64,000 bases of DNA from Malus domestica. Lineage: Eukaryota; Streptophyta; Magnoliopsida; Rosales; Rosaceae. The notes under the pieces are model-generated. The model ran no database searches, was not told where the DNA came from, and was given only the letters and a program-made list of their open reading frames with translations. The stretch lies in contig NC_091668.1 of the NCBI RefSeq assembly GCF_042453785.1, forward strand, positions 20,309,001-20,373,000, written 5' to 3'. Below, piece after piece: positions 3,725-63,246 of the stretch; the first letter of the stretch is position 1, and each line of letters starts with the position of its first letter. A program made the position numbers and the translations under genes.

Positions 3725-4440
3725 TCACTCCCACTTGTCAAAAGACTCTAAAACTCCCATCTTCATAACATGTCCCTTGAACACATTATTTGGCAGTGCT
3801 TTTGTAAGTGGATCTGCATTCATCAAACTGGTTGCCAAATACAAAATTTCAATTTCTCCTTTCTTGACAACTTCTCTAACCTTAAGAAATTTAACATCCA
3901 TCAATCTCGAGGATGAAGTCCTTTTATTATTCTTAGAAAAGAACACAGTAGTGTTATTGTAATAGAACATCTTCACAGGTCCCTTCACAGAATCTACAAT
4001 CCTCATCTCACTGACAAAATTCCTATGCCAAACTGCTTGCTTCATCCCTTCAAAACAAGCAACAAACTCGGCTTCCATTGTAGAAGTTGATACAATGGTT
4101 TGCTTGACACTTTTCCATGAAACAGCAACTCCATTCAACATAAATACATAGCCACTGGTGGACTTTCTTTCATCACTATCACCCCCGAGTCTGTGAATCC
4201 CACTAACTCCAATGAATTTTCTCTGCCATACACTGGCATATGTCCCTTTGTTCTCAACAAATATCTTAGAACTTTCTTTGCAGCAACCCAGTGAGCCTCT
4301 CCCGGATTTGATTGAAACCTTTCTAACACACCAACAATAAACGCCAAATCTGGTCTGGTGCAAATGTTAGCATACATGAGACTACCAACTAATGAAGCGT
4401 AAGGTTTTGACTTCATTAAATTTGCCTCATGCTCACTCTT
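3725..4440 (-). pseudogene. Copia RNase H domain, C-terminal end of Pol (broken)
   Basis: Minus-strand frames encode the classic Ty1/copia Pol C-terminus: RPDLAF, the STSGYVF block, [19 protein letters not shown], and [11 protein letters not shown] near the end. The domain normally degrades the RNA strand of the RNA:DNA hybrid during reverse transcription. Two overlapping frames are needed to cover it, so at least one frameshift is present. It ends close to the left LTR, as expected for the 3' end of pol. Confidence 0.85.
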
Positions 4441-4875
4441 GGGACACTGGTCTTTTGAAACGTACCCCAATCTTTTACGCCAAAGCATGAAAGAGTGACC
4501 AAAACCGTGCATCCTCTTAGTTGTGACATGTAAAACTTGTGGGTGACTCAGTTCTAATGTGCATTGTAATCTCCATAGGTGATCAAACATGAATGCTTTA
4601 CCAATTAAAGACCCTTTGAAGAAAAACTTAATACATTTGTCATCACCAATGAACACATACTTCTGTTTAACCAATTTTGATGCAGATATTAGGCTTCTTC
4701 TCATGGTGGGGACATATAAGACACTATCCAATTGCATTATGAAGCCTGTGTTTAACTTTAGTCTAACCATCCCAACAGCTTCTACATCTACCCTTGTCCC
4801 TTCTCCAACATAAACGTTGAAACAATTAGTTTCCTTTTGTTTCTCAAAACCATGTAATGAATTTGTGATGTGCAT
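4441..4875 (-). pseudogene. Copia protease-to-GAG-pre-integrase remnant fused to RNase H by deletion
   Basis: The frame carries a protease-like stretch (HITNSLHGF), a YVPTMRRSLISASKL segment and the GAG-pre-integrase signature LWRKRLGYVSKDQCPKSE. It then passes, still open, into [20 protein letters not shown], which belongs just upstream of RNase H. In complete copia elements integrase and the reverse-transcriptase palm lie between these points, so a deletion has joined the two regions near 4440. Confidence 0.8.
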
Positions 4876-4967
4876 TGATGTACCTGTGTCTAATCACCAT
4901 GAATTAATAGGAATCTCAATGAGATTTGACTTTTCACAGACATACACATCAGCCTTCCCTTTAGCCC

Positions 4968-7659: not shown

Positions 7660-8690
7660 TCCTTGACCATGTACAGGAGATTTGGTTGCTTTTTCATTGA
7701 TCAGGAAAGGAACAAAGTCAAACATGTTTGAGTTTTTCGCCCCTTTTGGTTGGATCATGCTAGTAACATAAAGTTATTGTGCTTGTATATGCAGGAAAAT
7801 AAAATAAGATTACCAAACTTCTTGGATAATGGTTCATGCATGGTTCATTTAGCTGTTTTTGGCATTCTTGGGGTAACGCACCTGACTTTGTTTCTCACTG
7901 TATACCAAAGTGCATTTTTATTTGAATCCCAATACATATTGAGTTCATAGATGTTGTCGCATTCGTTTGACAAAATTTGGATTTTCAAATGCTTGGGGAA
8001 GAATACAATAGCCATATTCTTGTCTTTACAATTGAGATAACTAGATCTTATCATGAATTACAAAAAATTTCCTTGCTAAAAATATTATTATTATTATTAA
8101 AGAAAACTAATGAAAAATGCTTTAAATATTTGCATTTTGATCAAAAACCATTTACTAACTTTATTTAATGATAAAGATAAAAAAACATTAAAAAATAAAC
8201 ATAAAAACAAAACCACATGTGCTAGCACGCATACTCCCTCCCCACCCCAAACTCTTTTTTTCTGTTGTCTTACGAGTTTTTTTTTTCTTTCTTTCTTTCT
8301 TTCTTATACTCTCCAGCCTCCATCCAACCTTCCCCAGAATTTTCCCAATTCCCCTTCGTTCAGGGTTTTATCTGCAATTTCCAATTTTTAATCATGCATG
8401 ATGCACATCGGGCATCTCTTAGAGTATTTTCACTGAAGAAGAAAGCCCCGATGCTCGTGCAAAAACGTCGGCGTCAAGTGTTGCAGTTTAGCCTCGCTTT
8501 ACTCCACGGCTTTTCTGTGTCAAATGGACCGCTACATCTCCCACAAAAACCCTAAATCTTTTATTTCTTCTTCTTCTTAGAATAAAAGAAAGACTTCAAA
8601 TTTAATACATTTTCCAGTTTTATTTTTGTAATGTTGTTTCCCACGCCCCCTCCTTTTCCACTATTTTTTCTCTCCGTTGTCTTAAGAGTT
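7660..8690. other. Non-coding stretch with a pyrimidine-rich tract
   Basis: No supported gene. It contains a T/CTTT-rich run at about 8256-8305 and a short open frame at 8390-8555 with no recognisable domain. A small 5'-leader-like arrangement (pyrimidine tract then ATG) is visible but too weak to call a gene. Confidence 0.35.
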
Positions 8691-8699
8691 CGTTTGTTT

Positions 8700-9000
8700 T
8701 ACTTAATAACTAAACACTATTTATGAAACCGGACAAAGAAAGAGACTATTTATGAGACTGGACTCAATATAACTAAGCACTATTTATGAAATATGACCAA
8801 GAACTATGCACTACTTATGAAACTGGACCAATAAATAGTGTAGTACTATTTAATTTCATAAATAGCGTTTAGTTTCATAAATGGTGTTTCAGTTTCATAA
8901 ATCATGTTTCAGTTTCATAAACAGTGTTTCAGTTTCATAAATAGTATTCAATTTCATAAATAGTGTTCAGTTTCATAAACAGTGTTTGTGATGAAAGTCA
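8700..9000. repeat. Inverted array of actatttatgaaact-type units
   Basis: On the left, units of the form cactatttatgaaactgga repeat several times. From about 8860 the same unit appears in the opposite orientation (gtttcataaatagtgtt) at least seven times. This arrangement is the same in kind as the larger array at 24615-26475, and the two probably belong to one foldback-like repeat family. Confidence 0.7.
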
Positions 9001-11101: not shown

Positions 11102-11356
11102 CTAATCAAATCCAAAATAAAAAGTTGAAAACCATTGAAATAATTTTATGCGTTTTTCTTGATTGTATTTAACAAACCATTTGGAAAGGTCGGAATATGG
11201 GGAAGATGATTGTTGAAGGTTCAACAGGTTGATGAACAACAACTGCCCACCTTCCCCTATTTGATTCGATATTGCAGGGAACTCTTTCGGATCAGAGTGC
11301 ATTGATTCTAGCACTACGCCGATACACACAATCCCTGCTTTCATTTTTCCTTTCAC
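11102..11356 (-). CDS. Possible small gene or first exon, unknown product
   Basis: A minus-strand frame of 84 codons starts with MKGKMKAGIVCIGVVLESMH and contains no known motif. About 140 bp upstream on the same strand is a good TATA-box sequence (cctataaatag, plus-strand 11494-11504). The composition between TATA and ATG is leader-like, with stop codons in all frames. It could be a genuine short gene, the first exon of a decayed gene, or chance. No homolog is claimed. Confidence 0.3.
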   Translation of the reverse strand: MKGKMKAGIVCIGVVLESMHSDPKEFPAISNQIGEGGQLLFINLLNLQQSSSPYSDLSKWFVKYNQEKRIKLFQWFSTFYFGFD

Positions 11357-24614: not shown

Positions 24615-26475
24615 TTCAACCTTTCATTGACTATTTCTATAACTGAACACGATTATTATCATTATTTCTTAAACTGAACACTTGTACTATCACTATTTCT
24701 TAAACTGAATACTAACTATTTCGTAAACTGAATATTAATTATTTCGTAAACTAAACATTGACTATTTCTTAAACTGAACCGACTATTTCTTAAAGTGAAC
24801 ACTAGTACTAACACTATTTCTTAAATTAAACACTGATTATTTCTTAAACTGAACGCTGACTATTTCTATAACCGAACACGAGTATTATCATTGTTTCTTA
24901 AACTGAACACTGGTACTATCACTATTTCTTAAACTGAATACTGACTATTTCGTAAATTGAACATTGACTATTTCGTAAATTGAATCGACTATTTTGTAAA
25001 CTGAATTGACTATTTCTTAAATTGAACACCAGTACTATCACTATTTCTTAAATTAAACACTGATTATTTCTTAAATTGAACACTGACTATTTATATAACT
25101 GAACACGAGTATTATCATTATTTCTTAAACTGAACACTTGTACTATCACTATTTCTTAAACTGAATACTAACTATTTCGTAAACTGAATATTAACTATTT
25201 CGTAAACTGAACATTGACTATTTCGTAAACTGAACCGACTATTTCTTAAACTGAACTTACTATTTCTTAAAGTGAACACTAGTACTATCACTATTTCTTA
25301 AATTAAACACTGATTATTTCTTAAACTGAAAGCTGACTATTTCTATAACTGAACACGAGTATTATCATTATTTCTTAAACTGAATACTGATACTATCACT
25401 ATTTCTTAAACTGAATATTGACTATTTCGTAAACTGAACATTGACTATTTCGTAAACTGAATCGACTATTTTGTAAACTGAATCGACTATTTCATAAACT
25501 GATTCGACTATTTCTTAAATTGAACACTAATACTATCACTATTTCTTAAATTAAACACTGATTATTTCTTAAACTGAACACTGACTATTTCTATAACTGA
25601 ACACGAGTATTATCATTATTTCTTAAACTGAACACTTGTACTATCACTATTTCGTAAACAGAATACTGACTATTTCGTAAACTAAACATTGACTATTTCG
25701 TAAACTAAACATTGACTATTTCGTAAACTGAACCGACTATTTCTTAAACTGAACTCTGACTATTTTTTAAACAGAACGCCCACTATTTCTAGAATTGAAC
25801 ACATGTATTATCATTATTTCTTAAATTGAACACTGGTACTATCACTATTTCATAAATTGAATATTGACTATTTCGTAAACTAAATTTTGACTATTTCTTA
25901 AATTAAAAATTGACTATTTCTTAAATTGAACTGTGATACTACCAGGAAGGATATACATGATGGGAAAGAGAAGAGGAAGCTTATCAAGCATTTGAGTGTA
26001 TCTCATTACCATGATTCCAGCTCCGGTTACAATACCCATTAGGAAATTAGGAACCACAAGCTTATGAGCGTGCAAGGCGCACACCAATCTGTGTTCAGTT
26101 TCAGAAATAGTCAATTTACAAAATAGTGTAATACTGTGTTCAGTTTCAGAAATAGTAATCGAGTTCAGTTTTAGAAATAGTACCCTATTTAGTTTCAGAA
26201 ATAGTCGGTTTAAGAAATAGTGTAGTACTCATGTCAATTTCAGAAATAGGAACTGCGTTCAGTTTCAGAAATAATATCCGTATTCAATTTCAGAATTAGT
26301 CGATTTAAGAAATAGTGTAGTACTAGTGTTCATTTTTTTCAGAAATAGTCAATGTTTAATTTTAGAAATAGTATAATACATGTGTTCAGTTTTAACAATA
26401 GTGATAATACTAGTGTACAATTTAAGAAAGTGACAATCTCGTGTTCAATGATCAGTTTAAGAAATAGTGTAGTAT
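24615..26475. mobile_element. Foldback-like element: inverted minisatellite arms around a gene fragment
   Basis: The left arm (24615-25930) is an array of about 18-20-bp units of the form actatttcttaaactgaaca, organised into higher-order units of roughly 227-250 bp marked by 'acgagtattatcatt' at 24878, 25105, 25355 and 25603. The right arm (about 26095-26475) carries the same unit inverted (gttcagtttcagaaatagt), so the arms can pair. A 160-bp non-repetitive loop separates them. Inverted arms made of short tandem repeats are the hallmark of foldback elements. No transposase is present, and ends and target duplication could not be determined. Confidence 0.65.
25935..26095 (-). pseudogene. Captured fragment resembling an ABCG-transporter membrane segment
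   Basis: The loop of the foldback array encodes, on the minus strand, HAHKLVVPNFLMGIVTGAGI followed by MVMRYTQMLDKLPLLFPIMY. The VPNFLMGI-TGAGI block matches my knowledge of the transmembrane region of plant half-size ABCG (WBC) lipid exporters. After that block the resemblance weakens. Only about 50 residues are present and both sides run into the repeat, so it is a fragment. Identity should be confirmed by protein search. Confidence 0.5.
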
Positions 26476-31897: not shown

Positions 31898-33398
31898 ATG
31901 GGTTCGAAAGCTCTAAATCCTAAGGCTCAGCCTTTTTTCTTGAACCGTTTTCAGACGCCTTATCTTCCTGCTTGGCCTGTATGCGCATATCGAATCGTTC
32001 ATCAGCCTAGATCCTTTTTTTGCCAACTGAACTTGGTCCAACCCAACCCAACTACAAAAAGGGTGCCGAGAAAGAGTGTTGAGAGTAAGAGGAATTTTGC
32101 TCCACCAAGGTCCAGAAACCCTTTGAAGAAGCTTGAAGATGAGAACCATGTAGTGGGTGCTCCTAGGGTTCTCGCCTGGGTGCCCAAGAAAGATCTGCCG
32201 GCTGGGAAGAGGTATACAGCGTCGTATCGGAAGATAAAGAAAGATACTGTGCGCGGCTGTGATGATGGCGGTGGCAGTGGCGGTGGTTGTGTAATTCCGT
32301 TTCCTGCAAGTCCTGATCTGGAAATTAGCTCCGGTCCTACCACGATCATGATAAAAAACATCCCAAACCAATTTCAGTAAAAACTCTTTATGTTCCTGGT
32401 TTTTTGGTTGGTCAAATTACTGTTCTTGGTTTTGTTTTTATTTTTCTTTGGTTATTTTCCGTACAAGCAGTAACTTTAGTGTTCGGATTTAACGTTAAGG
32501 TTCGGTTCTTTTTACTTTATCATAGCTTGTAAGCAGGAAGTAACTGTTTTGTCTTCCTATCCTTGAATCCTTTTGTGTTAGAAACAAGACGCAAGACGCA
32601 AGTTTTTTTCTGAGGGAACATGAAACACAGATATAAGTTTATATGCTGTTTTTTTATTTTTTTATTTTGTAAATCTGGTCATACAGAAAAGTTAATAATA
32701 TATATACTGTGCAGGAGGTGTGATTTGCTGACCGTCCTGAGAAATCACTGCCGTGATGAGAACCTACAGGCTTGCACCGAAGGTGTTACCACGAAATCTG
32801 AGTTCGATTTTGTTTATCTTCCAATGGATTTTAAGTAAGTTTAAAATGTTCAGTAACTGTCATTTTATGTAAGTTTAAAATGTTCAGAAACTGTGTTTTA
32901 ATTAATTAAATTGTAAAAAAATTGCTAATCTGTGTCCTTTTATCCCTGTAGGCAATTTTGGAACCACAAGAGGACTGCCAATCTGGGCTATGCCTTTGTT
33001 AATTTCACCAGTTTTACTGCTGCAAAGAGATTTTACAAGAAGTTTCACAATGAACAATGGAAGGTCCGCAGCAACAAGAAAACATGTGAAATCACTTGCG
33101 CTAAGGTTCAGGTTGACGTTCTACTCTTTTACTGGGCCGGTTTTTTATTTATATATAGTTTCGAATGTTTTATTTGATGGTTTGAAATCGACTGATGTTA
33201 TTGAGCTTTGATCATTTTGGTTTTGACGTGTTGTAGGGGCTCGAAGCACTGAAGAAGAACTTTGAGAGTAAAGTGTTTAGGTGCCACTCGGAGGAGTATT
33301 TGCCTGCGGTGGTGGAACCTCCATGTGACGGTGTTCTGCAGCAGCCCAAAGTCACTTCGGTGGGGACACGTGTAGGGTTGCCCTTTGTAGATTATTGA
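31898..33398 (+). CDS. MEI2-like RNA-binding protein (MEI2 C-terminal RRM-only type), copy A
   Basis: Four exons with GT/AG borders: 31898-32376, 32715-32834, 32952-33111 and 33237-33398, giving 306 residues. Residues about 148-260 form a MEI2-type RRM: TTIMIKNIPNQF (RNP2-like), CDLLTVLRNHC, a KSEFDFVYLPMDFK block and the RNP1-like NLGYAFVNFTSF, followed by NEQWKVRSNKKTCEI. The N-terminus is basic and proline-rich with no second RRM, as in plant MCT1-type proteins. These are nuclear RNA-binding proteins related to fission-yeast Mei2 and to TEL genes. Exon 1 carries a glycine-rich stretch (DDGGGSGGGC) absent from copy B. The stop follows VGLPFVDY, seven codons earlier than in copy B. Starting at 31898 gives the MGSKALNP terminus that copy B shares. 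Confidence 0.88.
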
Positions 33399-33699: not shown

Positions 33700-34205
33700 T
33701 CTCGTTTTTTCCATAGTCTAAAATATCCATAATATTCCTATATTTCCATCGAAATTTCCGTGTTTTTGGATTACCGATATTTTCGATATCATCGATATTT
33801 TAGATCTTGCTAAGTCATTCATGTATATTACCATGCAATGTATAAAGTGTAAAATATTGTACTAATTCATTATATATAAATGATTATGGTGTGTTTAAAT
33901 TTCTTTCATTAATTACTACATATTTTCTATACTTACAATATTTGCCAGCTCGCTATATAATCAACTTAAATCAGTTATATTTATCATGCAATGCATTTCC
34001 TTTCAATTTTTTTTGTGATAAACTAATAAATAATTGATTAAATAAATATCTTGCAAAGTTTCAATAAAAAATTTCAAGTTTTTTTTACAATTTTTGTGAT
34101 TTTTATTCAATTTTTATCGATATCAATAATATCCTGATATTTTCATTGAAATTTTCGTGTTTTTAGATTACCGATATTTCCGATATCATCGATATTTAAT
34201 ACCTT
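33700..34205. mobile_element. Fragment of the accgatatt-family TIR element, block A only
   Basis: It shares long stretches with the right part of the 40760-43220 element, including tgtaaaatattgtactaatt, ataaatgattatggtgtgtt and ttaccgatatttccgatatc. Block B reads across this point (near 62890) without it, so it inserted after the duplication. Confidence 0.65.
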
Positions 34206-34469
34206 TGTCTTTTCAAACATATTTTAAGGAATAAGTTATAAAATTAATTGAATTATAAAGGAGAGAAGGGTAGGTTGAAATTTGAGCCTTCTCCCTCGAT
34301 GGCATGCATATTTCCCATAGAAAAATTAAGGTCAGAAGACGAGAGAGCTATCATTCCTTAGTATAATGTGAAGCCAAGGGAGAGCGTCATACACGGCGCC
34401 CCAAACTGGAGTGAAGCAAATTTGGGTAAGCTTGACCTTGAGCTTGTTGCAAGAAATACCAATATGACA

Positions 34470-34478
34470 AAAAATAAA
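34470..34478. repeat. 9-bp target duplication aaaaataaa (left)
   Basis: Exact match to 35723-35731. Nine base pairs is the typical duplication size for Mutator-like transposons. Confidence 0.8.
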
Positions 34479-35722
34479 GGATAAAAAACTGTTTACTACC
34501 CTCATGTTTTGTGGTTTTCAACATTTAGTACATTAAGTTTTTTTCGTCTCAGATTCATACCTAAAGTGTAAATTTTAGAACAGTCTCATACATCCGTTAG
34601 TCAAACTGTTAAATTTGCCGTTAATTGTGACGTGGCGCCCATGTAGACAATGATTGGACGCTACGTGTTATTCACATTTTTTTTTCTTTCTTCTTCTTCC
34701 TTCTTCTTCTGCAACTTTTTTTTTCTTCCTTCTCCTTCTTCCTTCCTCCTTTTTTTTTTCCTCCTTCTCCTTCTTCCTTCCTCCTTCTTCCTTCCCCTTC
34801 TTCTCCTTCTTCCTTTTTCTTCCTTTTCCTTCTCCTTCTTCTTCCTCCGAATCTGGGGAAGATGAAGGTTTTTTTTTTTCTCTTCCTCCTTCTTCTCCTT
34901 CTTCTTCCTTCTTCTTCCTTCTTCTTCTTCTTCTTCTTTCTCCTTCTTCTCCTTCTTCCTTCTTCTTGCTCCAAATCTGGAGAAGATGAAGGTTTTTTTT
35001 TTCTTCTTCTTCTTCCTCCTTCTTCTTCCTTCTTCTTCTTCTTCCTCCAACTGCAACTTTTTTTTTCTTCCTTCTTATTCTTCCTCTTTCTTCCTCCTTC
35101 TTCTTCTCCTTCTTCCTTCCTCCTTCTTCCTTCCCCTTCTTCCCCTTCTTCCTTCCCCTTCTCCAAAAAAAAAAAAACCTTCATCTTCCCTAGATTCGGA
35201 GGAAGAAGAAGAAGGAAGAAGAAGGAATAAGGAGAAGAAGAGGAAGGAAGGAGGAAGGAATAAGGAGAAGAAGGAGGAAGAAAGTCGGAGGAAGAAGAAG
35301 AAAGAAGAAGGAGGAAGAAGAAGAAAGAAGAAGGAGGAAGGAGGAAGAAGGAAGAAGAAGAAGAAAAAAAAAAAAAAACTTCTCCAGATTCGGAGGAAGA
35401 AGAAGAAGAAGAAGGAAAAAAAAGGAAGAAGGAGAAGAAGGGGAAGGAAGGAGGAGGAAGGAAGAAGGAGAAAGATGAAGAAAAAAAAAGTTGCAGAAGA
35501 AGGAAGAAAAGAAAAAAAAAACAAACGTGGATGACACATGGCACCCAATCATAGTCCACATGGGCGCCACGTTACAATTAACGGCAGATTTAACAGTTTG
35601 ACTAACGGATGTATGAGACTGTCCCAAATTTACACTTTAGGTATGAATCTAAGACGAAAAAAAATTGATGTACTAAATGTTGAAAACCACAAAACATGAG
35701 AGTAGTAAACAGTATTTTACCC
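34479..35722. mobile_element. Mutator-like miniature element filled with TTC/GAA repeats
   Basis: 1244 bp, flanked by a perfect 9-bp duplication (aaaaataaa). The left end GGATAAAAAACTGTTTACTA pairs with the reversed right end GGGTAAAATACTGTTTACTA, and arms of about 190 bp match (including ttgtggttttcaacatttag and catccgttagtcaaactgtt). Between them lie about 490 bp of C/T-only strand (tcttcttcc-type repeats, about 34680-35165) and about 350 bp of the complementary G/A repeats (35175-35520). The whole element is therefore one large imperfect palindrome. Block B lacks it. It carries no transposase, and the long open frames inside it are artefacts of the repeat. Confidence 0.88.
34680..35520. 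repeat. Giant polypyrimidine/polypurine inverted repeat
   Basis: The top strand is almost pure C/T to about 35165 and almost pure G/A from about 35205. A few unique words (cagattcggaggaagaaga and its inverse) appear in both arms. Such mirror and inverted TTC/GAA tracts can form hairpins or triplex DNA and are prone to length change. Confidence 0.9.
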
Positions 35723-35796
35723 AAAAATAAAAACCCTGCAAAAGAAAACTGACATGAAATTGACCGCGTACTTTACTCCGGCGACTAGGAGCTATA

Positions 35797-37170: not shown

Positions 37171-39942
37171 TGACACACCCCAACCCAGAACATCCATTAA
37201 GATTCTGAATCGAGATGTGCTAGCCGACACTTGGAAAGTGACGAAGCCATAAAGTGTGATGGTGTGGAAAAATGTGAATAAATTTATACCTAAGAGTGCC
37301 TAAATACCAGAGTGCGCTGGTGAGTAGGAATGAACCCACTTCACACGTGACATTAGAGCATAAGTAAGTACAGTAGAGTGAATAAGGATTATACCCTCAG
37401 AAGTAGCCACCTATCCTGAGATTTGCCAAGAATCCTCGTCGATACGAACTTTCAGCAATTAAAACCTGGAGGGGCGCAAAACGGAAAGTGTGAGTGGGTA
37501 AAAACAAAGCTTTTCAAAAACCATTTTAATTATCAAAGGTAATAACCCCTCGCCGTAAAACCTGTATACTTCCCAGAAAATAGCATGCATGTTTACATCT
37601 CAAAACCATATTCGAAATAACAATTCCACAAATATACCATGTCAAATCTCAGTAAGAAATAAGTAAGTCAGGTGGAATAAACCAATATGAAATAGTATGT
37701 TAGCCGGAGTCACCTAAAGTGACCTGTACAATTGAGACCATAGCTCATCAATCAAATCCTGCACACGAGTCGAAACCACCTAATATGGTATGTACAACAG
37801 GTTAGGTGTAAATAAATACGCTCAAATGCTACGATCACGTGAAGGTTGTGCAAAGTATCGCAAGTCACCTACGAGTCAGAACCACCTAATATGGTCTGTA
37901 CTATAGGCAAGCACCTGCCTTGGATCCAAGATGAGAGTGTGATGCGGGAGGTGAACGATCACGTGAAGGCTAGGCCATGTCCTCAGGCGGAGCACTAACA
38001 TCGGGGTGCAGGATAATAAGCTCTAAATACATCTCAACACAATTATACTCACTACCATCACTACCATCAATATACTCACCTGAAGCTTACCTGAGCGTCC
38101 ACAGCGTCAAGCAACAATATATATAACCATACTAATGCATAATCGAACATAGAGAGCATTTGACATGGCATTTCAAAATATAAAACCATTTAACTAAGTT
38201 TTCTAGGAAAAACACCAAGTGTGTGTGTGTGTATATATATTAAAAACCAAAAGCCCATTCACTGGTATATATCTAGGTCGTAGTCCCCAAGTCTTGCATG
38301 GCTACACTCGTCCTCTAGAAACATCTCACCTATATGTGAAACAACTAATTTAACGTTAATTCGATAGCACATATACAAAACCTAGGATTAATTTCTCATA
38401 CGTCGCTCAATTAGGGTGTTTGAATATACCATCGTGGCCTACTCAACCCCCACGAGCATCCTCAGATTTTTAAAATAATTTTTGGACTTAATCTAATTTA
38501 AGTGTAAAACCCAACTTAAAACTAAATGGACTTAATCCATTTTGAACATAAGGCCTAAACCAATTCAATGGCTTAGGTCCAATTTGAAATGGTTTAAAGG
38601 TTGGGCTGGCCCAACATATATATATATATATACATATAGGAATTGCTTAAGGGGAGGGATCCCCATTTTTTCAAAAAAATGGGGATACGCTCCCCACCGT
38701 TGGATTTGAATTAAATGAAATCCTGTGGTTGCGATTCTATGGCCTGTGTTTTAATCTCAACCACACAATTTCATTAAAGTCAATCTAACGGTGGGGAGCG
38801 TGTCCCCATTTTTTTTGAAAAAATGGGGATCCCTCCCCTTAAGCTCCCTGTATACATATATATATATATATTTATCCTCCTTCCTCCTTGCGAAAATCTG
38901 GACTTTTTCAGTTTGGAACGCAAGACTTCTAGAGCTCATTTCGAGCTCAATTCTCAACAAAAATCCATGATTCAAAAACCTAAGTAAAGTTAGGAATTCA
39001 GAGAATAGATCTATACCCATTTAGGGTTATGATATAAACAGGGTTTGCCAGAAAAGTGGTCTAAAAGTGGCCAAATGGTCACGGGTCCAAGAATTCCAGA
39101 AAACTGGAATTTTTTTCCTAACTTTCCTAGCTAGTTTCTAGTTCAATACTAAACCAAACTTGATGATTCAAAAGCCATTTTGAAGTTAGAAATGTAGAGA
39201 AGAGAATCATACCTTTAAAAAACCCAATGGAGAACCGGAGTTGGTTGGAAATCTGGTCTGAAAACGGTCAAACGACCACTGTTCACTTTCCACAAATCTG
39301 GGGAAATTCTTCCCCAAGATGAAATATGTATTAAATCACCTATAAACCTTCTATTTAAGATTAAAAACATCACTAGGAGTTCAACATGAGAAGGATTTGA
39401 GCTTGGAAATTCCAAACTTACCTTGGTCGAAAGGTTCGAGATTCTGACGAAGTTACCATACGAAAACTACACAATTTCAAAGGGTGAGAAAGGGTGAGTA
39501 TGGGGTGTGAGGAAGAAAGGGAGAAATTTTGATAGTTGCCGTAGGTGCAAATATGTATGTGCGTGTGTGTGATGTCGGGGATGAGATCACCAAGAGGAGG
39601 AGAGGTGCGAAAGAGTGTGAGGGAGAAAAGGAATTTTCCGGAATGAGGGGGAAAAAGGCACGGGTGGAGGGAGTAATAAGGCCCTTAATTGGGCCATTGA
39701 GTTAAGGCCCTACAAATGGGTTCAAAGAAGAAATAACCAACCCGAAATAATAGAATTACACTCATACTCGTTATTAATTCATGTCGACGTGCTTGTAACG
39801 TCGAGCACCATTTAATTTCGCGAGCGAGGGGATAATTTAAAACTATATATGTCCATTCACGTCACTAAATCACGAGGGCATTATTGTCATTTTACATGCT
39901 CGGTGATAAAATATATACCTTGATTTAGGACGGGCTATAACA
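37171..39942 (-). repeat. Left LTR (3' LTR) of the 13-kb element
   Basis: Plus-strand ends TGACACACCCC and GGGCTATAACA. It aligns with 46414-50344 in order throughout, apart from nested insertions, and holds a small palindromic insertion at about 38640. Confidence 0.88.
38640..38848. mobile_element. Palindromic MITE inside the left LTR
   Basis: GCTTAAGGGGAGGGATCCCC at the left is matched by the inverted ggggatccctccccttaagc at the right, and 'gctccccaccgttgga' pairs with 'ctaacggtggggagc' further in. The right LTR lacks it at the same site (near 49260), so it arrived after the retrotransposon. Confidence 0.8.
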
Positions 39943-42600: not shown

Positions 42601-43220
42601 TATTCCCTAGGATAATTTTAATATGTTTAATGTTATTTATTATTTTATTTCCCTTACCATTTTCAAAGCCATTCCAGATCCATTCCAAAGCTTGAACACA
42701 AAGGGTTCCATATTTAAGGGACATGCAAATTTGTGACATGCAAAACTATTTTGGGGATTTATCATTTGATAACTACTCTTCACAATACACTCATTCTACA
42801 CATAGAGATGATGACGATAGTGACAAATTTGAACCTCATAGGAACTCTATGTGGTACTAAAGTGTAAAATATTGTACTAATTCATTATATATAAATGATT
42901 ATGGTGTGTTTAGACTTCTTTCATTAATTACTACATATTTTCTACACTCATAATGTTTGTCAGATCGCTATATAATCAACTTGATAATGTTAAATCCATC
43001 ATGCAATGCATTTCCTTCCATTTTTTTGTGATAAACTAATAGATAATTGACTAAATAAACATCCTACAAAGTTTCAATAAAAATTTCCAAGTTTTTTTTA
43101 CAATTTCCGTGGTTTCCATGTAATTTTTATCGATATCGATATTTTACCAATATTTCCATCGATATTTCCGTGTTTTCGGACTACCGATATTTCCGATATC
43201 ACCGATATTTTCTTCCTTGG

Positions 43221-46200
43221 TTGCAACCAAGCTAATGGTGGAACGAACAAGATGCAATTCGTCCACTAAGGTCTGAGTAACTTGTTTCAGGCTAATCGTT
43301 CGTCTAGGGGTAGAAATGTGATACTAACAACATCTAATCCTCATAGTCTTCATAAAGACTTCCAAAGGCTTGGGAAGTGAAACATGTAGCAAGATGAAAT
43401 ATAAATACCCCAAGATGATAATCTTGTCGGATTTCTGTTTGCCTGAACTTGTATAGAAGTCTAGAAGTAGCCTCCTCATAATGCCATCATCCTCTGGACA
43501 CAATTAAAAAAAAATTGTGGTTGTCCAGGAAGTTTGAACTCCATATCCTCAATATCCTCTCAACGTTAATCAAAAGCGGGGTGTATCTAGAAAAATGATT
43601 CTCTTCAAACATATCAAAGGGAGCCTCGATTTTATTCATTTCCTACCTCCACATTTGATCATGTCACAACAAGAACTTCTTGATCACGTCACATGGAAAA
43701 GTTAACAACGTCCCACTTCTATCTTAGTTGTCTTCCTAAGTGTTTTGTTGTTGAAATTTCAACGCCCATTTTCAGGAATGAAATCATTGTCAACACTTTA
43801 AACTTTGAGGCTGGAAGAATACGACTTTCCACTTAAGTAAAGCTACCACCAATTGAACACCACATAAGCATAGCATTGGTTCAACATCATGATTATTGAA
43901 TTTCACATTTTCTACACATACAAAATACCTCATACTGAGAGCGTATACTGATACTTCCCAACTCCATTCATATAACAAAAGGGATTATAATTATTCGAAC
44001 TATTTCTTGATAGGTTAAAGGTAACACCATAACGATACTCAAATTTTCCAACTAAAATAGGATAGAATAAGCTGAAAGTGTTCAAGGATAGATATGTCCT
44101 TTTTGTTCAACCAAACTGATACACCATAATACACTCGTAAATGTTGAGTTAGTCCTTCTATTATCGCTGCTAGGAACTTAGCTCATTCCAAGAGTAAAAG
44201 TACTTAAGAAATTCTAAGGTTGATAAGAATTTTGGACACGTTCTCCACAGAGAAATGTCATTTGATTTTCAGGCAAAGATGATAAATGTTAACTCTAAGT
44301 CATAGATAAGATAAGATGGCTCATTCCAAACAATTCTACACATTGGAAATATAAGTGATAATCCGTCATGCTACCTCTGCACAGCTGAACATTCAAAGAT
44401 ACATTGTCATGAATCTCCAAAAGATCAACGTCATCCAAGAGTGTAAAGCTATGATGAAATGAGACAACAATTCGGTTGTCAGAAACTTTATTCATTCCCG
44501 ACTTTCGAAACTAAACTAACTTTCCTTGACCAAAAAGTGAGGAAGGATACTATAGGCGAAAATCACTAATAAATTGTCGATAAAATCAACAAGATCAAGG
44601 ATATCTCGAATTCACAACCCTTTGTGATAATGTCAACTTTCTTTCGTTACAAACTTTTTAGGAAAAGAAAATAATCTCGTCCATTGATATCACATCTCCC
44701 AAGAAGAGTATCAATTTACCCAAAGTTTTTAATAAAAAAAATCTAGTAATAAGCTGACTAACAGAGCTTAGAGAATTTGGTCTCACCGTCGAGGTAATTA
44801 AGAAAGTCACCGATAAGACCATTCATTCGTAGTAGGACTTAAATGGTTTCTAATCGTCACCCGATAAAGTTATTAAAGTCTAGGTACAAACCTAAGGTTC
44901 AGTCTTTCACTGTCGCAATTAGGTTTGAAGTATCCTAGATAAAATGTTTGATTGGGTAATTCCTTAATTGGTAAGCTTTAATAACTAAATTTTTCCAAAT
45001 GGTAGGAGTTGTTCTAATGGACGCAAGGAAAACTAGTGTAATATGAAAAATTAGATCGATGATAATATCTCAAGTAAAGCTTTGGAATATGATGCCTGAA
45101 TGTACGTGCTCAAAATGTACCATAATATTTCCTTTCACCACGCCATGTGCTAATAGATCCTCACAGCTTTTTAATTACTCAACTCACTCTAATAGTGAGA
45201 AATTAACTCGTACTTCAATTCTCCTATCTATCCATGGAAGTGATCCAGAAGGTGGCTAATTGAAGAGATTCTATTTACCTAGATAGGTGATAAGGTAGAG
45301 ACAACTATGAGTTTACTGTCCTAATACAAAGCTTGTTCCTAACTTTCTGAAGTTTAGTTTCTTCAGCTTCAACCGTCGCTGTTATTCTATCTATTAGTAG
45401 TGCTGCTAATTGACACATATACGATAATTTTAATATTGTTCGCTACCCTAGTACTGTAAATCAGCGGTAAGGCACAAGAGTATCACTTCCAGATACTAGC
45501 ATGTGTCTAGTATTAGAAATCATACCGCCTGAATACCGGTTGACAGTTCATGGATATCGGACAATATCGTCAATTAGTAGCGTCGCTAGAGGCTAAACAC
45601 AGACTAGAGCCCGCTCAGATAGTGGTTTTTGGATGACTGATAAGAAATTGATCTTATGAGATGGTTCCATCATTTTAGGGAAAAAAAATACTCACTATCT
45701 CAAAGATTTTACACCACTCATAGGCCCAACAACTCACACCCTGGTGCCTATACTCATCGAAATGATGAGTACATCACCAAAAGAAAGGAAAATTTACTAA
45801 TACTCTACTTTAAAACTAGTTTAAACGGAAATCGATCTTTCTCCTAAAGATCCGAAATAATAACTAATGGTTAAGGAGATTAGTACTATCGGGGACCAAA
45901 AATGATTGTTCCCCATGTTCTTATGTCAAGTTCTATCCTTTTAGCACCCTACCGTCACACAAGACAATTTTGGAATCTTGAAGAAGTAAACTTCGTAGAA
46001 ATCCCAATAAATGGTATAGTAATGGGTACTGCCAAGGAATCAAAATTAGTTCTGGTTCTCTATCTCGAAAAGGTTGATAATGATGGCTCAAGAATAATGA
46101 TGAAATTGATTTATAGATCTCTAGTGTTACCCCGATATCAATACCTTAACCCTGCTTTAAGGCCTTCAACTAATCTCAAATCTCCACCTTTCCTTGGCAT

Positions 46201-46759: not shown

Positions 46760-47738
46760 AACACCTGGAAGGTGATGAAGCCATAAAGTGTGATGGTGTG
46801 GAAAAATATGAATAAATTTATACCTAAGAGTGCCTAAATACCAAAGTACGATGGTGAGCGGGAATGAACCCACTTCACATGTGACATTAGAGCATAAGTA
46901 AGTACAATAGAGTGGATAATGATTATACCCTCAGAAGAGCCATCTATCCTGAGATTTGCCAAGAATCCTCATTGATACGAACTTTCAGCAATTAAAACCT
47001 GCAGGGGCGCAAAACAGAAAGTGTGAGTGGGAAAAAACAAAGATTTTCAAAAACAATTTCAATTATCAAAGATAATAACCCCTTGCCGTAAAACCTATAT
47101 ACTTCCCAGAAAATAGCATGCATATTTATATCTTAAAACTATATTCGAAATAACAATTCCACAAATATACCATGTCAAATCTCAGTAAGAAATAAGTAGG
47201 CCAGATGTAACCAATATGAAATAGTATGCCAGTCGGAGTCACCTAAAGTGACCTGTACGGCTGGGACCATAGCTTATCAATCAAATCTTGCACACGAGTC
47301 AGCACCACCTAATGTGGTCTGTACGACAGGCTAGGTGTAAATAAATACGCTCAAGTGCTACGATCACGTGAAGGCTGTGCAAAGTATCGCAAGTCACCTA
47401 CGAGTCGGAACCACCTAATGTGGTCTGTACGACAGGCTGACATCTGCCTTAGATCCAAGATGAGCATGTGATGCGGGAGGTGAACGATCACGTGAAGGCT
47501 AGGCCTTATCCTCGGGCGGAGCACTAACACCAAGGTGCAAGATAATAAGCTCTAAATACATCTCAACACAATTAAGCTCACTACCATCAATATACTCATC
47601 TGAAGCTTACCTAAGTGTCTGCAGCGTCAAGCAACAATATATATAACCATACTAATGCATAATCAAACATAGAGAGCATTTGACATGGCAATTCAAAATA
47701 TAAAACCATTTAATTAAGTTTTCTGGGAAAAATACCAA

Positions 47739-47778
<40 letters not shown>

Positions 47779-47780
<2 letters not shown>

Positions 47781-48879
47781 GATAGGATCAAGGGACAAAT
47801 ATTTTTACAAATACTTTTACATTCTTTTTAAACCTTTTGATTATATGACATCCAATGGTTCTTATTTATTCATTAAATGACATGGATGCTTATGTGGATT
47901 TTAACTAATATTAAAGATAAACTAAAACTGGAAAAAAAAATCTTAAAAATTAAAAATATAATTAAAAGGGGGAAGAAACCCTAGATTGATACGAAGTTGA
48001 ATATATTACCCTTGATGAAAAAAGGCACAATTATTATCAGATATTCGTCATACAAGGGTAATATGAACAGTTTAAGTGAAGCTTTCGACTTCATATATTC
48101 GTCATACAAGGCACAATTATTCGTCAAGGGTAATACATGATCCTATGGCAATTACATGAAGTTGAATATATTACCCTTGTTCATGTTATTTCAGTTTGAA
48201 TTGTGTTTCGGTTGTTGAACGATGGGGATTCAGTTTTGTTTTCTTGGAAGGTACTTGAATATTTGAATGATTATTTTTCAAAATTACTTGTCTAAAAAAC
48301 CGTCTATAAATATAAACTCGAGCATGTTTTTATCACACCAATTCAAAAACAAGATGATAAATACGATAAAAGCTCCAAGGAAGGAAAAGAGTATGTTGTT
48401 TTGTTATTATTAGGTTTTATTTTTGATAAAAATAAAAACTCAATCCTTGTTTGCATTGGGTATTACCTATGCTTGGTATCACGTTTTTTTTTATTTTTTT
48501 TATTTTTATAATTTAAAAAGTATCTTGTTTTGTTATTATTAGGGTTTATTTTTGATAAAATGAAAGAAGAGATTCTATCAAGCTTCCTCATCAGAAAAGA
48601 AGAAGTTCCATGATTTTTTTATTAGGGTTCAAAGTCTGAATCCAAGTCTTGATCGAAATGGGAATGGGAAAACCAATTTTAGTTAAATTATCTTTCTTTT
48701 TTAATTATATTTTTAATTTTCTAGATTTTATTTTATTTTGTTCAGTTTTATTTATCTTTAATATTAGTTAAAATCCACATAAGCATCCATGTCATTTAAT
48801 GAATAAATAAGAACCATTTGATGTCATGTAATCAAAAGGCTTAAAAAGTGTAAAAATATTTGTTCCTTGATCCTATCCC
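47779..48879. mobile_element. 1.1-kb element with long terminal inverted repeats (about 160 bp or more)
   Basis: The left end GGGATAGGATCAAGG and right end CCTTGATCCTATCCC are exact complements. Inversion continues through ttgattatatgacatccaat, attcattaaatgacatggat and gcttatgtggattttaacta up to about 47935 and from about 48715. It is inserted in a TA microsatellite, so the target duplication is not readable. There is no transposase. Long TIRs suggest a Mutator-type non-autonomous element. Confidence 0.85.
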
Positions 48880-50344
48880 TATATATATATAAACCAAAAG
48901 CCCACTCACTGGTATACAGTTAGGTCGTAGTCCCCAAGTCTTGCCTGGCTACACTCGTCCTCCGAAAACGTCTCACCTATATGTGAAACAATTAATTTAA
49001 CGTTAATTCAATAGCACATATACAAAACCTAGGATCAATTTCTTATACGTCGCTCAATTGGGGTGTTTGAATATATCATCGTGGCCTACTCAACCCCATG
49101 AGCATCCTCATATTTTTAGAATAATTTTTGGACTTAATCTAGTTTAAGTGTAAAACCCAACTTAAAACTAAATGGACTTAATCCATTTTGAACATAAGGC
49201 CTAAACCAATTCAATGGCTTAGGTCCAATTTGAAATGGTTTAAAGGTTGGGCTGGCCCAATAGATTCTAGTGTTTTTTTTTTTTCCTTCTTCCTCCTTGC
49301 GAAAATCTGCACTTTTGCAGTTTGGAACACAAGACTTCTAGAGCTCATTTCGAGCTCGATTCTCAACCAAAATCCTTGATTCAAAAGCCTAAGTAAAGTT
49401 AGGAATGTAGAAAATAGATCTATACCCATTTGGGCTCGTGAAATAGACAGGGTTCGCCGGAAGAGTGGTCTAAAGGTGTTGGTCACGGGTCCAAGAATTT
49501 CAGAAAATTGGAAAAAAATTTCTAACTTTCCTAGCTAGTTTCTAGTTCGATACTAAATCAAACTTGATGATTCAAAAGCCATTTTGAAGTTAGAAATGTA
49601 GAGAAGAGAATCATACCCTTAAGAAACCCAACGGAGAACCGAAGTTGGTTGTAAATCTAGTTTGAAAATGGTCAAACAACCACTGTTCACTTTCCACAAA
49701 TCTGGGAAAATTCTTCCCCGAGATGAAATCTGTATTAAATCACCCACAAACCTTCTATTTAAGATTAAAAACATCACTAGGAGTTCAACATGAGAAGGAC
49801 TTGAGGTTGGAAATTCCAAACTTACCTTGGTCAAAAGGTTCGAGATTCCGACGAAGTTACCATACGAAAACTACACAATTCCAAAGGGTGAGAAAGGGTG
49901 AGTATGGGGTTTGAGGAAGAAGGGGAGAGATTTTGATAGTTGTAGTAGGTGCAAATATGTAAGTGCATGTGTGTGATGTCTGGGACGAGATCACCGAGAG
50001 GAGGAGAGGTGCAGAAGAGTGTGATGGAGAAAAGGAATTTTCTGGAATGAGGGGGAAAAAGGCACTGGTGGAGGGAGTAATACGGCCCTTAATTGGGCCA
50101 TTGAGTTAAGGCCCTAAAAATGGGTCCAAAGAAGAAATAACCAACCCGAAAGTAGAATTACACCCATACTCATTATTAATTCATGTCGACGTGCTCATGA
50201 TGTCGAGCACCATTTAATTTTGCGAGTGAGGGAATAATTTAAAACTGTATATGTCCATCCACGTCACTAAATCACGAGGGCATTATTGTTATTTTACATG
50301 CTTGGTGATAAAATATATACCTTAATTTAGGACGGGCTGTAACA

Positions 50345-62570: not shown

Positions 62571-63246
62571 TGGCAGTGCGTGAGGCTGGGGTGACCTGTG
62601 TTTTCATTCTCTCCCTAGCTGGAGTAGTCTAATCAGCACTTCTGATTTTTACTTTGGTCGAAAATCAGCACTTGGTTTAGTTGCAATATCTTAGGGTGAA
62701 GTGGAAACATAGGGGTTTAAGATCATGACTAGTCTTGTTTAGTAGGTTTTTTCTTTTAATCTAGTTTTGATTAGCATGCATGTGAAATGTTAATCTCGGA
62801 TTTGCTTAATTATGGTTTTCTGAGTTTTCATGTTTTATGTGCCATAGGTGCCAACTGCTGCTGATGTAGTTAAATAGTTTCTTAAATTTTATTAATCTAA
62901 TATCCTTTCAATTTCAAGCATATTTTAAGGATTAACTTAAGAAATTCAATTAAAAAGGAGAGGTGGGTAGGTTGAAATTTGAGCCTTCTTCCCTTCGATG
63001 GCATGCATATTTTCCATCAGATAAAGTTGAGCTATCATTCCTTAGTAATGGGACGCAAAGGGAGTGTCAGACATGGCGCCCCAAACCGGAGTAATGCAAA
63101 TTTGGGTAAGCTTGACCTTAGCTTATTGCAAGAATTACTAATTTACTATAAAATATAAAATAAAAAACCTGCAAAAGAACTGACATGAAGACTTTTACTG
63201 ACCAACCTGACCACACTCTACTCCGGTGACTAGGAGCTATATGGAT
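62571..63246. other. Downstream flank shared with block A
   Basis: Matches 33399 to about 35796 apart from the two block-A insertions. It contains no further coding frame. Confidence 0.6.

Follow-up and report, generated by a model that had tools for sequence, protein, structure and literature searches.

A probable foldback-type Mutator-like element with TTC-rich inverted arms behind a MEI2-like gene

Introduction

Behind a MEI2-like gene, in a window of 64 kb (the whole stretch of DNA analysed here, AT-rich with 35% GC), a long pyrimidine-rich tract is followed by a long purine-rich one. This locus raises the question of whether the two tracts form a separate interior, enclosed by a transposon as a sequence-only reading had proposed, or whether they belong to the inverted arms of the element itself.

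Results

Borders and terminal inverted repeats

The borders of the element are defined by the following features.

34470..34478, + strand: target-site duplication (TSD), left copy, AAAAATAAA
34479..34679, + strand: left terminal inverted repeat (TIR), outer non-repetitive part, 201 bp, beginning GGATAAAAAACTG
35522..35722, - strand: right TIR, outer part, 201 bp, reading GGGTAAAATACTG from its end
35723..35731, + strand: TSD, right copy, AAAAATAAA

The element measures 1,244 bp (34479-35722) and carries the perfect 9-bp duplication AAAAATAAA at both flanks. The two copies are identical at 9 of 9 bases, and their length is that expected for a Mutator-like element (MULE), about 9 bp. By itself this duplication is weak evidence, because the 9-mer is A-rich and recurs in the window (10 occurrences, both TSD copies counted). 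It gains weight from its position, directly adjoining the inverted repeat at either end, and from the existence of a related element-free site (described below). The same word is also tabulated among the flanks of CitMule_3 of citrus (PMC4334395); for an A-rich word this is probably a coincidence.

The outer arms align with 90.05% identity over 201 columns (E 6e-75), in agreement with the TIRs of about 100 bp or more that characterize MULEs. Among 200 aligned bases there are 19 mismatches, 16 of which are transitions, a pattern that fits cytosine methylation without being a demonstration of it. The whole arms, counted up to the centre, are unequal, with 686 bp on the left and 558 bp on the right. 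The earlier description of a transposon with a perfect 9-bp duplication and long terminal arms, Mutator-like by its structure, is thus borne out; assignment to the Mutator superfamily rests on the lengths of the TSD and of the arms.

Coding content and search for sibling elements

No transposase domain was detected by Pfam in any of the 15 stop-to-stop frames of at least 150 aa in the window (two of them analysed in part), and the five such frames overlapping the element, where the captured host gene fragment of a Pack-MULE would be sought, gave no Pfam match of any kind. The only match among the 15 frames was Pol_BBD at 4138-4893 on the - strand (E 1.2e-16), probably a retrotransposon remnant.

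A blastn search with the outer arms revealed no second copy in the 64-kb window (next best E 0.43), and a 35-base arm pattern, allowing up to 3 mismatches, recovered only the two arms there. No sibling was matched in a plasmid collection, and 22-base and 19-base arm patterns gave 0 matches each in viral contigs; neither collection is meant for plant genomes, and both blanks say little. In GTDB contigs, likewise not meant for plant genomes, the 19-base pattern gave 1 match (L001). This match was taken as chance: the stretch it shares is 22 bases long for one arm and 21 for the second, and its similarity is otherwise E 0.93 at best. Among the literature matches listed, the titles and opening lines of abstracts mention no MULE with TTC-rich palindromic arms.

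Other repeats and small RNA genes are present in the window. A second inverted-repeat element lies at 47779-48879 between TA tracts, with ends GGGATAGGATCAAGG and about 110-120 bp of arm aligned; it is absent at the related place near 38232-38240 and looks like a MULE-type MITE that targets TA microsatellites. A small palindromic element at 38618-38871 (arms of 67 nt, 85% complementary, TA-rich ends) is absent at the related place near 49261-49279. Two related segments, 37227-39942 and 46761-50344, are 90-94% alike in three pieces, at an offset of about 9.5 kb. Units of 21-31 bp, of the ACTATTTCTTAAACTGAACACTG type, form large arrays at 24628-26429; the units at 26094-26429 look like their reverse complement, and similar-looking units occur at 8708-8987. 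Rfam identified two H/ACA snoRNAs above the gathering score, snoR134 (8394-8539, + strand) and snoR135 (11193-11341, - strand), both of which we take to be plant families. Together with the MEI2-like genes and the types of transposon present, they suggest a plant host.

The pyrimidine and purine tracts are reverse complements

Between the outer repeats, the following features were distinguished.

34680..35164, + strand: left arm, inner pyrimidine-rich modular tract, 485 bp, 8.7% purine
35165..35521, - strand: right arm, inner purine-rich tract, reverse complement of the left kind, 357 bp, 90.5% purine
34710 and 35052, + strand: landmark a (TGCAAC followed by a T run), left arm
35483-35495, - strand: landmark a, right arm
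34849 and 34973, + strand: landmark b (GAATCTGG-GAAG type), left arm
35379-35391 (outer) and 35185-35197 (inner), - strand: landmark b, right arm

Together the two tracts span 842 bp, as anticipated by the sequence-only reading, which had put a polypyrimidine tract followed by a polypurine tract at about 840 bp. Their relation to each other is not the one it had described. When the purine tract (35165-35512) was reverse-complemented and compared with the pyrimidine tract (34690-35164), the local alignment score was 332, as against 19 for a mirror alignment in which the sequence was reversed and not complemented. The two halves are therefore an inverted repeat, and the purine half is not a mirror of the pyrimidine half.

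Such a score could in principle arise from unrelated low-complexity tracts, complementary in appearance only. Dinucleotide shuffles of one tract (500 shuffles) scored 123 on average (sd 13) and at most 170; block shuffles (500 each) reached maxima of 235 with 6-nt blocks and 289 with 10-nt blocks, all below the observed value. Shuffles of 20-nt blocks, however, reached 353, so that the alignment test proves no collinearity beyond about 20 nt. The two longer landmark patterns, moreover, are found in each arm, inverted relative to one another, and have no other occurrence in the 64-kb window; we hold an accidental resemblance to be very unlikely. The landmarks follow one another in the order a-b-b-a in the left arm and a-b-b in the right arm. 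Composite arms with a variable number of modules, as in foldback elements, are thus present.

These common landmarks in inverted orientation also support the register of the outer part of the tract. The inverted repeat can be followed in register from about 34479 to 34861 on the left and from 35379 to 35722 on the right (383 and 344 bp, with a 32-bp gap). Further inward, modules of the same kind continue up to the centre, and their number and order differ between the arms. The inverted repeat consequently runs from the termini into the tract, and the separate interior that had been proposed does not hold.

The relation between modules was analysed in the 75 bases that precede each landmark b. 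The first left module and the right outer module score 115 (69 of 72 aligned bases identical), and the other five pairs score 73-92. The two right modules are alike at 66 of 68 positions, comparable by identity to 69/72 and with more gaps. Past the first b the register is lost: in a comparison that left out the right inner module, the two left modules score 80, the first left and right outer modules 75, and the second left and right outer modules 60. The left tract contains, in addition, a tandem period of 124 bp (34750-35044, 2.4 copies).

These data bear on a second alternative, in which an ordinary MULE with shorter arms and a one-sided TTC-rich tract later underwent an inverted duplication, by template switch or gap repair, that copied the tract across. 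The inner halves differ in length (485 against 357 bp) and in module order, with a tandem duplication in the left one. Moreover, similarity between the arms is no lower in the first inner module (91% over 96 ungapped bases; 69/72) than in the outer arm (90%), which later copying would explain. This observation makes our preferred reading, with the tract as an original part of both arms, less sure and the copying scenario likelier. On the other hand, so slight a difference in identity, in a tract of low complexity, does not date the parts, and in either arm the outer repeat is followed first by landmark a and then by landmark b. On balance we consider later copying of the tract unlikely.

An element-free related site behind a second MEI2-like copy

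The element lies near one of two related MEI2-like copies, the second of which provides a site for comparison.

31898..33398, + strand: MEI2-like copy A, from the first ATG of the long first-exon frame to the stop of the last-exon frame; exon limits approximate
62912..63240, + strand: related site lacking the element, in the 3' flank of MEI2-like copy B; its alignment with copy A runs across the insertion point

Stitched exon translations match RRM_2 (PF04059) with E 4.5e-16 for copy A and 1.8e-16 for copy B; first-exon frames submitted to Pfam on their own gave no match. Copy B starts at about 61.06 kb and is 77.7% identical to copy A over 1887 columns along the gene. The stop codon of copy A, in the conserved last-exon frame, is at 33396-33398, which places the element 1.08 kb behind it, in accordance with the distance of about 1.1 kb given previously.

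The relationship between copies A and B extends into the 3' flank. After removal of the element and of one duplication, the joined flanks of copy A align with 62912-63240 behind copy B at 270 identical columns out of 303. Aligned by itself with copy B, the right flank scores 77, and 1000 mononucleotide shuffles reached 36 at most; the copy B site is its best place in the window outside itself. The target at copy B reads TAAAATAAA, corresponding to 8 of the 9 bases of the TSD word. Just before it, copy B has 8 bases that are absent from copy A, and TAAAATA occurs twice in a row. This site may never have been occupied and carry a small local repeat, or it may have been vacated with a footprint. 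Under either history, the element-free related site indicates that the element is a discrete, mobile unit; only if the site was never occupied did the element arrive after the A/B duplication. The 8 extra bases make the preferred reading less sure. Between copy A and the element lies a dispersed repeat (33843-34208) that is 86% like 42858-43221 and seems to be missing from the flank of copy B.

No insertion date is derived from comparing the divergence of the arms (19/200) with that of the A/B flanks (33/303), because in elements of this kind the arms may already differ when they insert. As for a possible assembly artefact, the borders, the TSD and the element-free related site fit a real insertion; the length of the inner tract is not covered by this argument.

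Predicted fold, triplex and triplet-repeat potential

The + strand of the element is predicted to fold into one long hairpin of -754 kcal/mol (RNA parameters), with 497 of 512 pairs formed across the centre. Shuffled controls were much less stable, at -405 (sd 12) in 10 segment-wise shuffles, which preserve the composition of each tract, and -346 (sd 15) in 10 whole shuffles. A fold of the unshuffled element alone with DNA parameters placed 480 of 509 pairs across the centre. By prediction, then, nearly the whole element consists of arms able to fold back, as expected for a foldback element, and the suggested hairpin potential is supported at this level. When the DNA is double-stranded, the palindrome may be capable of cruciform extrusion.

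The triplex potential that had been suggested would be local. H-DNA needs a purine/pyrimidine tract with mirror symmetry. Between the two halves there is no such relation (mirror score 19, reverse-complement score 332), and the mirrors seen are short and confined to the inside of each half. Perfect mirror arms reach 15 and 17 nt, compared with up to 14 in shuffles. Local perfect mirrors cover 232 of 485 bp and 150 of 357 bp; in 100 mononucleotide shuffles of each tract, a lenient control, the coverage did not exceed 60 and 40 bp. Uninterrupted pyrimidine runs reach 134 nt and purine runs 92 nt. The longest pure TTC/GAA-type run, in contrast to an expanded triplet array, is 21 nt. Triplet expansion is thus not supported as an explanation of the tract, and the earlier claim that such DNA may expand is weak here.

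Long runs and local mirrors are what one would expect under a third explanation, in which the locus is a triplex- or hairpin-forming site, fragile or variable in length, that regulates the MEI2-like gene in the manner of Arabidopsis IIL1. According to PMC12177298, an intronic GAA/TTC expansion at IIL1 is accompanied by 24-nt small RNAs and silencing. Against this explanation, the mirror-repeat control is lenient, a longest pure run of 21 nt does not lead one to expect classical triplet expansion, and the element is outside the introns of the predicted gene, 1.08 kb past its stop codon. We regard this explanation as rather improbable; it could nevertheless add to the preferred one instead of replacing it.

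Discussion

The most satisfactory reading of the locus, which we hold to be probable, is that of a non-autonomous Mutator-like element of foldback type, both of whose arms include the TTC-rich tract and which was mobilised by a transposase encoded elsewhere. Each arm would consist of the 201-bp outer repeat, continued inward by TTC-rich modules, with the two arms meeting almost without a spacer. A Mutator-type transposase from elsewhere would have bound the outer repeats, as suggested by the TSD and the arms, and insertion into the A-rich site 1.08 kb behind copy A would have produced the 9-bp duplication. The pyrimidine/purine palindrome would result from the presence of the TTC-rich tract in each arm. 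Unequal change of the arms would have followed, through local tandem duplication, seen on the left as the 124-bp duplication, and through slippage; slippage-prone modules in the arms would account for the unequal growth.

Foldback Mutator elements are already known, and the present element is a vivid example of this kind. MuTAnT of Medicago was first found as a 292-bp element with two 144-bp arms and is described, together with FARE of Arabidopsis, as having arms with a foldback structure; FARE has long palindromic repeats and, as stated in the same source, is now counted among MULEs (PMC4486113). The present element resembles both in its long modular arms and predicted foldback, a likeness at the level of description. 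MuTAnT differs in that it prefers TA microsatellites, whereas the modules described here are TTC-rich. Tm1, a Mutator/foldback element of root-knot nematodes, also has composite inverted repeats with a variable number of tandem modules, unequal arms and mostly 9-bp TSDs; however, its modules are of 13-15 bp and of other sequence, its ends bear asymmetric 7-bp motifs and some of its copies encode a transposase (PMC3169594).

Repeated sequence within TIRs has also been described for MULEs with multiple long TIRs in tomato, maize, rice and Arabidopsis, where slippage is discussed, as is the incorporation of acquired sequence into extended TIRs (PMC3310237). In those elements the duplicated unit is a whole TIR; in the present one it is an inner pyrimidine-rich module. 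Inverted-repeat elements that hold tandem or microsatellite repeats in their arms or interiors, among them Tetris of Drosophila virilis and MITEs with (GTCY)n, are likewise non-autonomous and carry and spread such repeats, but they belong to other superfamilies, have other repeat sequences and are found mostly in animals (reviewed in PMC9659126). Small elements with comparable target sites are on record from other plants, with Mutator-like MITEs with 9/10-bp TSDs in pineapple (PMC8449440) and small inverted-repeat elements with 10-bp TSDs or within microsatellites in guayule (PMC5907723).

CitMule of citrus, also a MULE, has A/T-rich TSDs of 9 bp and carries a TC-rich tract at the 5' end, but it encodes a transposase and is described without long TIRs (PMC4334395). 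A triplex was proposed for a TTC-repeat motif in citrus; this motif is located in the middle of a deleted region, outside CitMule, whereas the present element carries the TTC-rich tract itself (PMC4334395). Similarly, the IIL1 expansion is intronic, while the array described here is interrupted and lies behind the gene (PMC12177298).

Today the element would most likely be silenced DNA with a strong ability to extrude hairpins. If it were transcribed, double-stranded RNA would give rise to 24-nt siRNAs and local DNA methylation. A link between the element and the expression of copy A is possible. A broader proposal, which we put forward as a long shot, is that the inverted repeats of a plant MULE family have come to include homopyrimidine TTC-rich modules, and each transposition would thus place a new purine/pyrimidine palindrome beside genes, as a source of hairpin RNA, triplex or fragile DNA; presence or absence of the element would then make the MEI2-like copies differ in silencing.

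The window offers a natural pair, two related MEI2-like genes, of which one is followed after 1.08 kb by a hairpin-forming insertion and the other by the matching site without it. Should the family prove numerous, it would reveal the way in which pyrimidine/purine palindromes are spread by foldback elements, and if such palindromes break or attract small RNAs.
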